Source of the DNA: Streptomyces neyagawaensis
GTDB lineage: Bacteria; Actinomycetota; Actinomycetes; Streptomycetales; Streptomycetaceae
Direction of reading: 5' to 3'
NCBI RefSeq assembly: GCF_023516595.1
Contig: NZ_JAMGBG010000052.1
Location: 62,001-126,000 of the forward strand
DNA length: 64,000 bases
The translations under genes and the position numbers were made by a program. Of this stretch, positions 12,228 to 56,443 are shown one piece after another. Positions within the stretch are counted from its first letter, which is position 1, and the number at the start of each line of letters is the position of its first letter. The notes under the pieces are model-generated. The model saw nothing but the letters and a program-made list of their open reading frames with translations. It was not told where the DNA came from and ran no database searches.

Positions 12228-12387
12228 TTCCCGGGTCCTCCTGCCACGTAGGGCTCGGACTCCGGGGCTGTCGAAGACGACAGAGATCAGCGGACAACGG
12301 CACAGGGGGCGACGCCGTGTGGAGGACCCGCTCCTGCTGGAGCAGGCCGACAACAGTCGGCAGCGCGCACGCATGCCCGCCCGCCGC

Positions 12388-12514
12388 GCACTGCCTCCCA
12401 TCCGGACTTTAACCGTCGGTCCAGGAATTTCACCTGGTCAACCGGCCGCTGGAAGCGACCGGGTCGCGGACTGTAACCGCCGGTTCGGACTTTCACCGAC
12501 CCCGGAGTGCGCTG
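12388..12514 (-). ncRNA. FMN riboswitch (RFN element)
   Basis: Read on the minus strand, the conserved RFN segments appear in order: GGGGTCGGTGAAAGTCCGAA, CCGGCGGTTACAGTCCGCGA, a variable stem, GGTGAAATTCCTGGACCGAC, and GGTTAAAGTCCGGATGGGAG. It lies 160 bp upstream of ribE. FMN binding should reduce expression of ribE-ribM-ribBA-ribH and, if cotranscribed, hisE-hisG. The 160-nt region before ribE contains several GC-rich hairpins that could form the expression platform; I cannot tell transcriptional from translational control. Confidence 0.95.
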
Positions 12515-12833: not shown

Positions 12834-12973
12834 CCCCTCCCTTCCCCTCTCCCCCACCCCCGCGCTCGCCGTCCGGTGGGTTCTTCGCCCCGTGTCACAT
12901 TCCACGTGTGCTGTCCGGTCATAGCTACCGAAGGCGTTCCGTGGGGAGCGCCGATGTCGAAAGGCTGGACAGC

Positions 12974-13732
12974 ATGACCACGATCCTGGTGACCGGCGGG
13001 ACCGGTGCCCTCGGCCGGCGCCTCACCGAACGGCTGCGGGCGGACGGGCACGAGGTGCGGGTGCTCAGCCGGCACGCGCAGCCGTACGCCGTCGATCTGG
13101 TCGCGGGCGGGAGCGGGCTGGACTCGGCGCTGGCGGGGGTGGACACGGTGGTGCACTGTGCGTCCTCGCCGCGCGGGGGTGACGAGAAGGCGGCGGCGAA
13201 CCTGATCGCCGCGGCGCGGCGGGCCGGGGTGGGGCATCTCGTGTACATCTCGATCGTCGGCGTCGACCGGGTGCCGTTCGGCTACTACCGGAGCAAGCTG
13301 GCGGTCGAGCGGCTGATCGAGGAGTCGGGGCTGGCCTGGACGACGCTGCGGGCGACCCAGTTCCACGACCTGCTCGTGACGCTCTTCGAGGGTCTGTCGA
13401 AGTCCCCCGTCGTGCCGGTGCCCGCCGGGGTGAGCGACCAGCCGATCGCCGTCACCGAGGTCGCCGACCGCCTGGCCGAGCTCGCCGTGTCCACCCCCGC
13501 GGGCCGCGTCCCGGACATGGGCGGCCCGGAGGTCCTGAGCCTCCGCACGCTGGCCCGCACCTATCTGACCGCCACCGGCCGCCGCCGCGCCCTCCTGACG
13601 GTGCCCCTGTTCGGCAAGGCGTACGCGGGGTTCCGGGCGGGCGGTCATCTGACACCGGAGCGGGCGGTGGGCAAGGTGACGTTCGCGGAGCACGTGGCCG
13701 AACGGTTCGGCGGGGGCCGCAGGACAGGGTGA
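12974..13732 (+). CDS. NmrA/SDR-type NAD(P)-binding oxidoreductase
   Basis: This 252-residue protein is an atypical short-chain dehydrogenase. It has the N-terminal nucleotide-binding motif TGGTGALGRRL (residues 6-16), VDTVVHCASSP, and a YYRSKLAVE segment in the position of the SDR YxxxK, then an NmrA-like C-terminus (LRTLARTYLTATGRRR). Substrate unknown; such proteins act as NAD(P)H-dependent reductases or redox sensors. The ATG at 12974 is chosen by homology-like start (MTTILVTGGTG). The 3' end lies within a 41-bp tandem repeat whose first unit contains the stop codon. Confidence 0.85.
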   Translation: MTTILVTGGTGALGRRLTERLRADGHEVRVLSRHAQPYAVDLVAGGSGLDSALAGVDTVVHCASSPRGGDEKAAANLIAAARRAGVGHLVYISIVGVDRVPFGYYRSKLAVERLIEESGLAWTTLRATQFHDLLVTLFEGLSKSPVVPVPAGVSDQPIAVTEVADRLAELAVSTPAGRVPDMGGPEVLSLRTLARTYLTATGRRRALLTVPLFGKAYAGFRAGGHLTPERAVGKVTFAEHVAERFGGGRRTG

Positions 13733-13817
13733 GCCGGGGGCGCCGGATCGGCGGGAGCCACAGGACAGGGCGAGCCGGGGGCGCCGGATCGGCGGGAGCC
13801 ACAGGACGGGGCGAGCC
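13720..13817. repeat. 41-bp tandem repeat spanning a stop codon
   Basis: Units beginning CAGGACAGGG or CAGGACGGGG start at 13720, 13761 and 13802, giving an exact 41-bp period. Two units are nearly identical and a third is partial. The first unit includes the last codons and stop of the NmrA-type gene, so the repeat has expanded from coding sequence into the intergenic space. Confidence 0.85.
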
Positions 13818-13919
13818 GAGGGGGCGCCGGGACGGTGGGGATGCCGGGGACGGCCCAGGGTCCGGACTCCACCCGGCGGGGAATGCCGAGGGCGGCCTGG
13901 TTCACAGGAGCCGGCCGGC

Positions 13920-14262
13920 AGGCGTGAACGCCGAAGGCGAGGCGAGACGCGAAGCCTGACCGCCGGGCGGACGCCGAAAGCACGGCAAGCCACGGAGCCC
14001 GATCGGCAGGCGGACGCCCAAGGCGAGGCAAGACGCGAAGCCTGACCGCCGGGCGGACGCCCAAGGCGAGGCGAGACGCGGAGCCCGACCGCCGGGCGGA
14101 CGCCGAAAGCACGGCAAGCCACGGAGCCCGATCGCCGGGCGGACGCCGAAGGCGAGGCAAGACGCGAAGCCTGACCGCCGGGCGGACGCCGAAGACACTG
14201 CAAGCCACGGACCCCGAACGGCAGGCGGACGCCGAAGGCGAGGGGAGTCGCGCCGCCTGTTC
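13920..14262. repeat. 43-bp imperfect tandem array, about eight units
   Basis: The GGACGCC or AACGCC core recurs with a 42-43 bp period (starts near 13927, 13969, 14012, 14054, 14097, 14140, 14183, 14226). Two unit types are interspersed: one continuing with GAAAGCACGGCAAGCCACGG and one with AAGGCGAGGCAAGACGCGAA. Each unit carries a small palindrome around CCGCCGGGCGG. There are no unique spacers, so it is not CRISPR. The array fills the gap between two convergent genes; long open frames through it are artefacts of the repeat. Confidence 0.9.
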
Positions 14263-14313
14263 GGCGGCGGGATGCGGAGGGCGGGCCGGACCATGGGGCG
14301 CCCGCTGTCGGCC

Positions 14314-15684
14314 CTACCTCGGCGGTGGTGCGAACAGTTCGTCCTGGGCCGTGTCCCTCGCCATGAGCAGGGCCCCTCGGAGTACGGCGGCGCCGCCCAG
14401 GGCGCTGGGCCGGACCTCCGTGGGCAGCGGCGAGAGTGCAGCCAGCCGCGCCTCGACCCGGGCTGCGAGCACCTCCCCTCCGGCCTGCCCGACCTCCCCT
14501 CCGAGCACCACACAGCCGGGGTCGAGAACGGCGACGACGGAGGCGACACCGATGGCGAGTCGATCGGCCAGGGCGTCGAGGAAGCGGGCGTGGGCGTCGG
14601 CCGACCGCCGGGTGTCCGGGGCCGTGTCCGGGTCGCCCAAGGGGTGTACGGGAGTGTCCGTCCCGTCCGACGAGGCGTCGGCCCCACCCGCCGCGGGACG
14701 CGTCTGCGGGGCGTTCGAGCCGGCCGGTGCGGCCGCGTTTCCGCCCCTCGGGGCGTCGGGTCCGTCCGCCTGAGGTCGGCTCGTCGCCGCCTCCGCGGCT
14801 GCCCTCACCAGGGTGGCCGCGGGTGGCTCGTTGCCCGTGGGGGCGGGGGCCGGCAGGGCGTACTCCCCGGCCAAGGAGTCGATCGCGGCGGCGGCGCCCA
14901 GGGAGTGGAAGCCGCCCTCGCAGTCGGTGGCCGAGGGCAGGGTCGTGGTGCCCGGGACCGGGAGGAAGCCGATCTCGCCGGTGCCGCCGGAGGCGCCGCG
15001 ACGGAGGGTGCCGTCGAGGACGACGGCCGCGCCGGTGCCGAGGCCGAGCCAGAGGAGGACGAAGGTGTCGCGGTCGCGGGCGGCGCCGTCCCGCTGCTCG
15101 GCGAGCGCCGCGAGGTTGGTCTCGTTCTCGACGAGGACCCTGGCCGGGAGGCGTTCACCGAGGGCGGTGGCCAGCCGACGGTGCCATTCGGGCAGCCCGG
15201 TGCTGTCCCGCAGTTCGCCGGTGGCCGGGTCGATGAGCCCGGGGGCGCCGATCGCCACGGTGTGCAGCCGGTCGGCCCCCGCCTCCTTCCCGGCGCGCTC
15301 CACGAGGCCGACGGCCTGCTCGACGGCGGGCCCCGTACCCGCGTCGTCCGCGATCGGGACCGACGCCCGCGCCAGTTCCGTGCCGAGCAGATCGGCGACG
15401 ACGACCGTGACACCCTCGGTGCGCACGTCGAGCGCGGCGAGGTACGCGCGGTCGGCGACGATGCCGTAGAGGCGGGCGTTCGGCCCGCGCCGCTGCTCAC
15501 CCGACTCCCCCACCACCGAGATCAGTCCGGCCTCGGTGAGGCGCTCCACGAGATCGGCGACGGTGGGCCGGGACAGACCGGTGAGCTGCTTCAACTGCCC
15601 CGCCGTCAACGGCCCTTCCTCCTGCAGCAGCCGCAGGGCGAGCCGGTCGTTGATGGCCCGGGCGGTGCTGGGTGATGCGGGCAT
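14314..15684 (-). CDS. ROK-family transcriptional regulator with low-complexity insertion
   Basis: This 456-residue protein has an N-terminal winged HTH (LTAGQLKQLTGLSRPTVADL, residues 25-44) and a sugar-kinase-like ROK domain with GAPGLIDPATGEL and GLGTGAAVVLDGTL. The usual ROK zinc motif (CxCGxxGC) is not obvious. Between about residues 280 and 370 there is an Ala/Pro/Gly/Thr-rich stretch not found in typical ROK proteins, which explains the length over the usual ~400. It is divergent from an MFS transporter and probably represses it in response to a sugar or similar ligand. Confidence 0.87.
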   Translation of the reverse strand: MPASPSTARAINDRLALRLLQEEGPLTAGQLKQLTGLSRPTVADLVERLTEAGLISVVGESGEQRRGPNARLYGIVADRAYLAALDVRTEGVTVVVADLLGTELARASVPIADDAGTGPAVEQAVGLVERAGKEAGADRLHTVAIGAPGLIDPATGELRDSTGLPEWHRRLATALGERLPARVLVENETNLAALAEQRDGAARDRDTFVLLWLGLGTGAAVVLDGTLRRGASGGTGEIGFLPVPGTTTLPSATDCEGGFHSLGAAAAIDSLAGEYALPAPAPTGNEPPAATLVRAAAEAATSRPQADGPDAPRGGNAAAPAGSNAPQTRPAAGGADASSDGTDTPVHPLGDPDTAPDTRRSADAHARFLDALADRLAIGVASVVAVLDPGCVVLGGEVGQAGGEVLAARVEARLAALSPLPTEVRPSALGGAAVLRGALLMARDTAQDELFAPPPR

Positions 15685-15763
15685 GCCGGGATCCTCCCAG
15701 ATCGACGACGCGTACGGTTGCCGGCCTTGTGACAGCCGGGACAGACAATCCGACCGCCGGGCC

Positions 15764-15860
15764 CGTGACGCCGTACGGACAGCGCCCGTGACGCCGTACG
15801 GACAGCGCTCGTCACGCCGTACAGACAGCGCTCTCTATCTATCAGGCAGGGTTCCTGATA
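15764..15860. promoter_or_regulatory. Operator region between ROK regulator and MFS gene
   Basis: Two elements are visible. Three direct repeats of GTGACGCCGTACGGACAGCG (starts 15764, 15788, 15811; third copy diverged) have a 23-24 bp period. Immediately after them is a perfect inverted repeat TATCAGG-N7-CCTGATA (15840-15860) followed by GTTTAC. Either could be the ROK binding site; the palindrome is about 100 bp before the MFS start. Confidence 0.55.
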
Positions 15861-25065: not shown

Positions 25066-25198
25066 GGGCTTCTCTTTCCGTGGGGGTGTCGGGACGGTGC
25101 CCGGCCGAGGGAGCCGGGCGGGGTCATCGGTGTGGCACGTAGGCCGGGTGGCCGTCAGTGGGTGACACGCGGTCTGGGCGGGCGGCGCGTGGCACGCA

Positions 25199-25300
25199 GG
25201 GCTCGGTTGCAGCGCGCCCCAGGGCTCGGTTGCAGCGCGCGGCCCCCAAGGCTCGGCGGCCGCCCGCCGCCCGCACGGCTCGGTGGCAACGCGCCACGTG
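25199..25300. repeat. Short direct repeats in the gap before the HAD/EEP gene
   Basis: GCTCGGTTGCAGCGCG occurs at 25201 and 25224 (23-bp period), with degenerate copies at 25251 and 25277 (GCTCGGTGGCAACGCG). The gap between the ABC ATPase stop and the HAD/EEP start otherwise shows no gene. Confidence 0.6.
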
Positions 25301-40908: not shown

Positions 40909-41010
40909 GAAAAAGGTGCTCCGGATAAGGGATGAGATGCCACGACCAGCGTACGACGCGGGTCGGCGGTGGGGGCGGGGCCCGTGGACGATACGTCCGG
41001 GCGGTGCGCT

Positions 41011-41131
41011 CGGTGCCGAGGAAGTGCCTCCAGGCGGTGTCCACGGTGCCGAGGGCCTACCTCCCAGCGGGTGCCCTCGGTGCCGAGGCCTTACCTCCAG
41101 CCGGGTGCCCTCGGTGCCGAGGAACCGCCCT

Positions 41132-41156
<25 letters not shown>
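41011..41156. repeat. 34-bp tandem repeat running into the 3' end of fmt
   Basis: CGGTGCCGAGG recurs at 41011, 41044, 41078, 41112 and 41146 (33-34 bp period). The last copy encodes the final residues of Fmt (GTEGTV), and the stop codon lies between copies 4 and 5. The array fills most of the 223-bp gap between fmt and rsmB. Confidence 0.85.
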
Positions 41157-43097
<1,941 letters not shown>

Positions 43098-46732: not shown

Positions 46733-46972
46733 AACGCTCCCTGTGGTTGCAGCGGCTGCTGGCTGATCATTGGCGGACGGGACGGGGGCTGCGCCCGGCG
46801 TCGTCCGTGAACAGTTTATCGGTCGGTCTCGACCACCGGCCCACCTGTCTCGCCTCTCGGGAGCTCTGTGACCTGCGGCACGTGCATTCTGCCCAATGGC
46901 CGTCGCTGTCCGCCAGGGTCGCCACACCCCTAAGTTGCGTCCTGTTCACGGTCCGTGGTGCGAATGGAGCAG

Positions 46973-51984: not shown

Positions 51985-55285
<3,301 letters not shown>

Positions 55286-55293
<8 letters not shown>

Positions 55294-56443
55294 GCTGGCC
55301 CTCCATCAGGGATACGAAGCGGTCGAACAGGTAGGCGGCGTCGTGCGGGCCGGCTGCCGCTTCGGGGTGGTACTGGACGCTGAAAGCCGGGCGGTCGAGG
55401 AGCTGGAGTCCCTCCACCACGTTGTCGTTGAGGCACACGTGGGAGACCTCGGCGCGGCCGTAGGGGGTCTCGGAGACCTTGTCGAGCGGGGCGTCGACGG
55501 CGAAGCCGTGGTTGTGCGCGGTGACCTCGACCTTGCCGGTCGTACGGTCCTGCACCGGCTGGTTGATGCCGCGGTGGCCGTACTTCAGCTTGTAGGTGCC
55601 GAAGCCGAGGGCGCGGCCGAGGATCTGGTTGCCGAAGCAGATGCCGAACAGCGGGGTGCCGCGCTCCAGGACCGCCCGCATCACGGAGACCGGGTGGTCG
55701 GCGGTGGCCGGGTCACCGGGGCCGTTGGAGAAGAACACGCCGTCGGGGTTCACGGCGTACACCTCGTCGGCGGTCGCCGTGGCGGGCAGCACGTGCACCT
55801 CGATGCCGCGCTCGGCCATGCGGTGCGGGGTCATGCCCTTGATGCCGAGGTCGACGGCGGCGACGGTGAACTTCTTCTCGCCGATCGCGGGGACGACGTA
55901 CGGCTCCTTGGTGGCGACCTCCGCGGAGAGGTCGGCGCCCTTCATCTCGGGGGCCTGGCGGACCTCGGCGAGCATGGTGCCCTCGTCGGGCAGGGCGTTG
56001 CCGGAGAAGATGCCGACGCGCATGGCGCCGCGTTCGCGCAGATGGCGGGTGAGGGCGCGGGTGTCGACGCCGCTGATACCGACGACGCCCTGCTGGGCGA
56101 GCTCCTCGTCGAGGGTGCGCCGGGAGCGCCAGTTGGACGGCACGCGCGCGGGGTCGCGCACGACGTAGCCGGCGACCCAGATCCGCTGCGACTCGGGGTC
56201 CTCGTCGTTGACGCCGGTGTTGCCGACGTGCGGGGCGGTCATCACGACGACCTGGCGGTGGTACGACGGGTCGGTGAGGGTCTCCTGGTAGCCGGTCATA
56301 CCGGTGGAGAACACGGCCTCGCCGAAGGTCACCCCCACGGCCCCGTAGGCGCGGCCGCGGAACGTCCGGCCGTCCTCCAGGACGAGTACGGCAGGAAGCG
56401 CCCTTGTCCTCTGCGAGGCGTTCCCCTGAGTGGAGGTCGTCAT
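55286..56443 (-). CDS. carA: Carbamoyl-phosphate synthase small subunit
   Basis: This 385-residue glutaminase subunit supplies ammonia to CarB. The triad-type class I amidotransferase motif is [20 protein letters not shown] with the catalytic Cys, followed later by the His/Glu in [20 protein letters not shown]. The start is at ATG 56443 ([11 protein letters not shown]) rather than an open extension to 56497. ATGA-type 4-bp overlap with the membrane-protein gene upstream. Confidence 0.97.

Follow-up and report, generated by a model that had tools for sequence, protein, structure and literature searches.

The repeats described here lie between two genes of a 64,000-nucleotide stretch of DNA (the window, as the whole analysed stretch is called below) from a draft genome of 10,064,219 bases in 270 contigs (G000), which its genus mates and named relatives place in Streptomyces. 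On the left, an open reading frame on the plus strand at 12974-13732 encodes a predicted NmrA-type, NAD(P)-binding protein (Pfam NAD_binding_10 and NmrA); its start at 12974 is a choice within the longer open reading frame 12908-13732, and its stop codon occupies 13730-13732. On the right, an open reading frame on the minus strand at 14314-15684 encodes a predicted ROK-family protein with a MarR-type winged helix (Pfam). The two genes are thus convergent, with 581 bp between their stops. Further to the left, Rfam assigns an FMN riboswitch to 12384-12514 of the minus strand, adjoining minus-strand open reading frames that by eye read like riboflavin synthesis genes. Elsewhere in the window, a Streptomyces-metK RNA lies at 46737-46853, also on the minus strand.

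Two tandem arrays, at 13703-13830 and 13927-14270, flank a non-repeated stretch (13831-13926) that is common to S. ossamyceticus. The original prediction of two minisatellites between convergent genes is borne out by TRF, by shuffled controls and by the pattern of the units; the interval first given for them, 13720-14262, marks the right locus but falls slightly short on both sides. In the first array, TRF finds 3.1 copies of a 41-bp unit with 91% matches and a score of 203: three successive copies (13703-13743, 13744-13784 and 13785-13825) are followed by a remnant. The last nine codons of the NmrA-type gene and its TGA stop fall inside the first copy, and copies 2 and 3 carry CGA where the first carries TGA. 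This repeat had been said to swallow a stop codon, which is right insofar as the first copy covers the stop, but overstated: the TGA is intact and is found at the same aligned position in all four of the sister species described below. Copies 2 and 3 sit behind the stop and leave the protein untouched.

The second array was fitted by TRF at 13928-14243 as 7.3 copies of a 43-bp unit (79% matches, score 394), or alternatively as 2.4 copies of a 129-bp unit (90% matches, score 492). For comparison, the top score reached in 1000 dinucleotide-preserving shuffles of 13733-14313, a stretch that includes the whole of the 43-bp array and only part of the 41-bp array, was 95. Both arrays exceed chance. 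A degenerate pattern, written from the array's own units, finds seven in-register units (U1 to U7) at 13927-14227 and none in 100 shuffles, and an eighth unit, U8, at 14228-14270 aligns with the other seven without gaps. A further degenerate unit preceding U1 was considered and dropped, with 12 of 43 bases agreeing in the register tried.

The division of about eight units into two interspersed types, as originally described, is also recovered. Units of type A (U1, U3, U4 and U6) have 39-42 of their 43 bases in common and units of type B (U2, U5 and U7) 36-41, whereas the two types share only 29-35 with each other; U8 stands apart, with 26-33 bases in common with the other units. The two subtypes are real, and their order is A B A A B A B, followed by U8. 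Across all eight units, 22 of the 43 columns are invariant. The higher score obtained at a period of 129 bp goes with the near identity of blocks U1-U3 and U4-U6, which agree at 39, 41 and 42 bases in their respective units, or 122 of 129; U3 and U6 differ at a single base.

The 43-bp unit was found at this locus only. When the 10-Mb genome was searched with the degenerate pattern, allowing up to three mismatches, all seven matches lay in the array and none outside it, and a reversed control pattern gave no match in G000. A similarity search of the genome, in which 40 of 174 candidates were scored, returned two weak partial matches, neither of which touches the 43-bp array: one aligns with the 41-bp region over 53 bp (79% identity), the other with 13829-13861 over 33 bp (91%).

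Relatives were compared at the level of species, with one genome for each; the named relatives are the best 80 of 236, a selection from which some of the genomes closest to the window's own may be absent. The four nearest are S. torulosus, strain MA5143a, S. ossamyceticus and strain HM190, whose NmrA-type proteins are 90-93% identical to that of the window, against 83% for the next relative. All four keep both flanking genes, and the spacers between them differ. In S. ossamyceticus, the spacer is 240 bp long rather than 581 bp, and contains one copy of the 41-bp segment and a diverged pair of 43-bp units, one of which agrees best with U1 (33 of 43 bases; 32 of 43 with U6) and the other with U8 (36 of 43). 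The difference in length is 341 bp, and two 41-bp units plus six 43-bp units make 340 bp. TRF does not report this diverged pair. Genome G139, whose spacer length and match coordinates are the same, is probably the same genome as S. ossamyceticus; when 392 genus mates were searched with the locus, it was the only one, among the matches listed, to match inside the spacer, the other listed matches all lying in the flanking genes or at their edges.

S. torulosus has its own two-copy 45-bp repeat of a related unit (TRF, 2.1 copies, 100% match). The spacer of MA5143a (L103) contains no 43-bp unit and no match to U1-U7; a single inverted match of 28 bp (89%) straddles the end of U8. The same spacer also carries 35 bp of the non-repeated stretch in the opposite orientation to that in the window, at 94% identity. 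HM190 shows weak traces, in the form of short matches of 27-65 bp at 72-89%, and in the spacers of L102, L103 and L104 no second copy of the 41-bp unit is reported by TRF at a score of at least 50. The count of 43-bp units across the five sister genomes is therefore about eight, two, two, none and weak traces, so that the variation in unit number anticipated among relatives is found among the species compared. An identical locus in all relatives, together with a unit found nowhere else, had been named in the original prediction as the mark of a fixed accident; the former was not seen, as the spacers differ in the four sister species, and the latter was. From these comparisons, the array is probably young, and it differs between sister species.

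Beyond the sister species, both gene ends could be found at 60 of the 80 named loci, the other 20 being dropped because no match to the ROK C-terminus was in place. Measured between the protein matches, the spacer in these 60 species ranges from 14 to 2217 bp, with a median of 152 bp. An array with a period of at least 20 and a score of at least 80 is present in 10 of the 60, S. torulosus among them, and in 11 if the score is lowered to at least 50; the remaining 50 species have none of score at least 80, although such counts of array-free spacers miss old, decayed pairs because TRF misses the pair in S. ossamyceticus. The periods include 27, 45, 47, 84, 96 and 209 bp, and outside the sister species none of the arrays in the 60 spacers resembles those of the window. 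At E <= 0.01, the spacers that match positions 13703-14313 are those of the four sister species and L107 and no others, the L107 match covering 31 bp at the gene end. A second genome set, which overlaps the named one, holds other arrays at the same place (46, 63, 69 and 96 bp). Because 50 of 60 named species do without such an array here, a conserved role for it is unlikely.

The position of arrays relative to the direction of their neighboring genes was also assessed, with genes called by a home-made codon-usage finder and with spacers shorter than 10 bp or longer than 1500 bp left out. In other Streptomyces (1.38 Mb), arrays number 0.53 per kb of convergent spacer, 0.22 per kb of codirectional spacer and 0.03 per kb of divergent spacer, and are carried by 10 of 142, 23 of 585 and 2 of 175 spacers, respectively. 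The corresponding values for G000 are 0.55, 0.51 and 0.23 per kb (9 of 96, 27 of 265 and 8 of 99 spacers). At the 80 named loci, arrays are present in 12 of 72 spacers between convergent genes, 1 of 114 between codirectional genes and 5 of 140 between divergent genes, the convergent ones being largely the NmrA-ROK spacer itself. This orientation bias is compatible with, rather than proof of, the tolerance of arrays where no promoter is disturbed; the argument rests on the other genomes, because convergent and codirectional spacers are nearly alike in G000. The NmrA-ROK spacer, with an array in 10 of 60 named species as compared with 10 of 142 convergent spacers in other Streptomyces, is not claimed as a special hot spot, because the two counts use different definitions of a spacer and the second includes some that are orthologous.

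Together, these observations make it very probable that the locus is a mutation-driven minisatellite of the VNTR type, specific to this place, which arose from an imperfect repeat already present in a spacer free of promoters. The ancestral spacer would have had a single 41-bp segment where the NmrA-type gene ends and, besides it, two imperfectly matching 43-bp units. S. ossamyceticus appears to have kept this arrangement, and the direction of change would thus be expansion from a pair. In the window's lineage the imperfect copies may then have multiplied to three and eight, by replication slippage or by unequal recombination among them, and a late step was probably the duplication of the three-unit, 129-bp block, which would explain why the two types look interspersed. 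The array would be tolerated on account of its position, since both neighboring genes end there: a promoter is not expected and neither gene is disrupted. No function of its own seems to be indicated. Of the earlier idea of a recombination hot spot, only a weak form holds, namely that the repeats are variable; recombination itself would be a presumed cause. If this reading is correct, the growth of a bacterial minisatellite can be traced here, with a sister species keeping the apparent starting pair and the window's genome the expanded array.

A different reading would make the array a bidirectional terminator or anti-collision buffer, in which repeated GC-rich hairpins halt RNA polymerase coming from both genes. 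The location between convergent genes is consistent with this, as is the density of arrays per kb, which in other Streptomyces is highest in convergent spacers. On the plus strand, the spacer RNA folds with a z-score of -1.87, and 3 of 100 shuffles fold as well; the minus strand, however, folds like its shuffles (z 0.10). The internal palindromes that had been attributed to every unit are present only as in any such GC-rich DNA: with loops of up to 12 and each unit extended by 12 bases, 34-88% of 500 mononucleotide shuffles contain an inverted repeat as good as the unit's best in seven of the eight units. Moreover, the palindromes differ from unit to unit, and among the aligned units none of the eight pairs of the consensus fold has changed on both sides. 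The sole inverted repeat above chance, reached by 5% of shuffles, is that of U8 at 14251-14269, with a 7-bp stem, a 5-nt loop and no T run, and it could help in ending transcription of the ROK gene.

An intrinsic terminator consists of a GC-rich stem followed by a T run, and no such site is found in 13600-14450 (mean of 0.3 in shuffles) by a scan that can miss terminators lacking the T run. No sigma-70-type promoter was found in a scan of the array region either; the consensus sequences for both kinds of signal fit Streptomyces poorly. No Rfam family reaches its gathering threshold in the array. Given also that 50 of 60 named species have no such array between these genes, and that their spacers are as short as 14 bp, a terminator or buffer is an improbable explanation. 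It is likewise improbable that convergent spacers of Streptomyces are preferred nurseries of minisatellites, where head-on transcription leads to breaks or stalls and arrays of this kind persist for some time by slowing or stopping polymerases that run through from either side.

A DNA-binding protein might instead attach to the repeats at regular intervals, as suggested by the constant period of 43 bp over eight units and by the invariant columns. Yet recent duplication also yields a constant period and shared columns, the unit is found at no other place in the genome, and 50 of 60 named species have no array of score at least 80 here. The protein-binding role once proposed for the palindromes also loses its footing, as they vary between units, lie at the level of chance in seven of eight and show no two-sided change. 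Binding sites are accordingly a very unlikely account of the array. An equally slight probability attaches to an erroneous copy number in the draft assembly, which would be compatible with the minisatellite reading: the genome is in 270 contigs, and collapse of repeats is possible because U3 and U6 differ at one base, but the units do differ from one another, a single contig carries the array together with its unique flanks on both sides, and related units occur in sister species.

Finally, it is hardly conceivable that the array belongs to the coding sequence of a repetitive protein, despite minus-strand open reading frames of 187, 261 and 482 amino acids through all or part of it and a 129-bp block of three units that is a multiple of three: the 43-bp unit is not, Pfam has no match for the 187- and 261-residue frames, little or none of the array is present in S. 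ossamyceticus and MA5143a, and the home-made gene finder calls nothing between the two genes, although its silence says little because frames overlapping the flanking genes are excluded on that ground alone.

In minisatellites, or VNTRs, a unit of about 10-100 bp is repeated head to tail, while CRISPR arrays are near-identical repeats with unrelated spacers between them, and MIRUs are dispersed over many loci. The present 43-bp units adjoin at 43-bp spacing with no spacers, which upholds the original view that they are unlike CRISPR. As in the bacterial VNTR loci used for strain typing, the units exceed 20 bp, stand head to tail above chance in few copies, are intergenic and vary in number among related genomes; unlike at typed loci, the variation seen here is between species only and the TRF matches are 79-91%. 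The part of PMC2884548 that defines minisatellite motifs counts those of at least 20 bp and at least two copies with at least 90% identity; the matches given by TRF here come to 79% for the 43-bp period, 90% for the 129-bp period and 91% for the 41-bp period. In its account of E. coli, the same source describes palindromic units (REP/BIME) as intergenic, 30-37 bp long and often clustered; the present array is likewise intergenic, but its unit was found at one locus only and has no conserved palindrome. MIRUs, presented in PMC3635867 as actinobacterial minisatellites with copy-number change, are similar in both respects. By contrast with a dispersed repeat, the window's unit was found at a single locus. 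No title on minisatellites in Streptomyces spacers stands among the titles listed for the topic, which is not to say that none has been published; PMC9195005 and PMC4239341 are among the listed papers that contain both words. The array adds no new kind of system, and might be of use for typing within this group of species.

Non-coding arrays are common but uneven in the sampled Streptomyces DNA, with G000 at the upper end. In 739 kb of this genome there are 80 arrays of period at least 20 and score at least 80, among which the 43-bp array ranks sixth and the 41-bp array fourteenth. Samples of 400 kb or more contain 15-71 non-coding arrays per Mb. The rest of G000 has 71 (the window itself 78), 20 other genomes 55, the 80 named loci 40 and the G108 spread sample 15. 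In the sisters the values are 50 and 80 for HM190, 83 for S. ossamyceticus (24 kb), 33 for MA5143a and 14 for S. torulosus, and in six 60-kb orthologous stretches they are 0, 33, 33, 67, 17 and 17. If only periods not divisible by 3 are counted, the density is 40-47 per Mb in G000, compared with 21 for the 80 loci and 8 for the G108 spread sample. That G000 might be unusually rich in arrays was considered and rejected: the excess is strong only against G108 (71-78 against 15 per Mb), which is low, while the other samples are intermediate and the density is about 1.3 to 1.9 times that of two multi-species samples. This excess is not built on, because the stretches come mostly from contig starts and are not random. 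Further arrays in the window lie at 41002-41156 (34 bp), 42930-43018 (36 bp), 25181-25294 (27 bp) and 15761-15831 (23 bp), and the top-scoring array in the sampled part of G000 is one of 7.0 copies of a 98-bp unit with 99% match, on contig C2 at 54983-55669 in the coordinates of the joined stretches.
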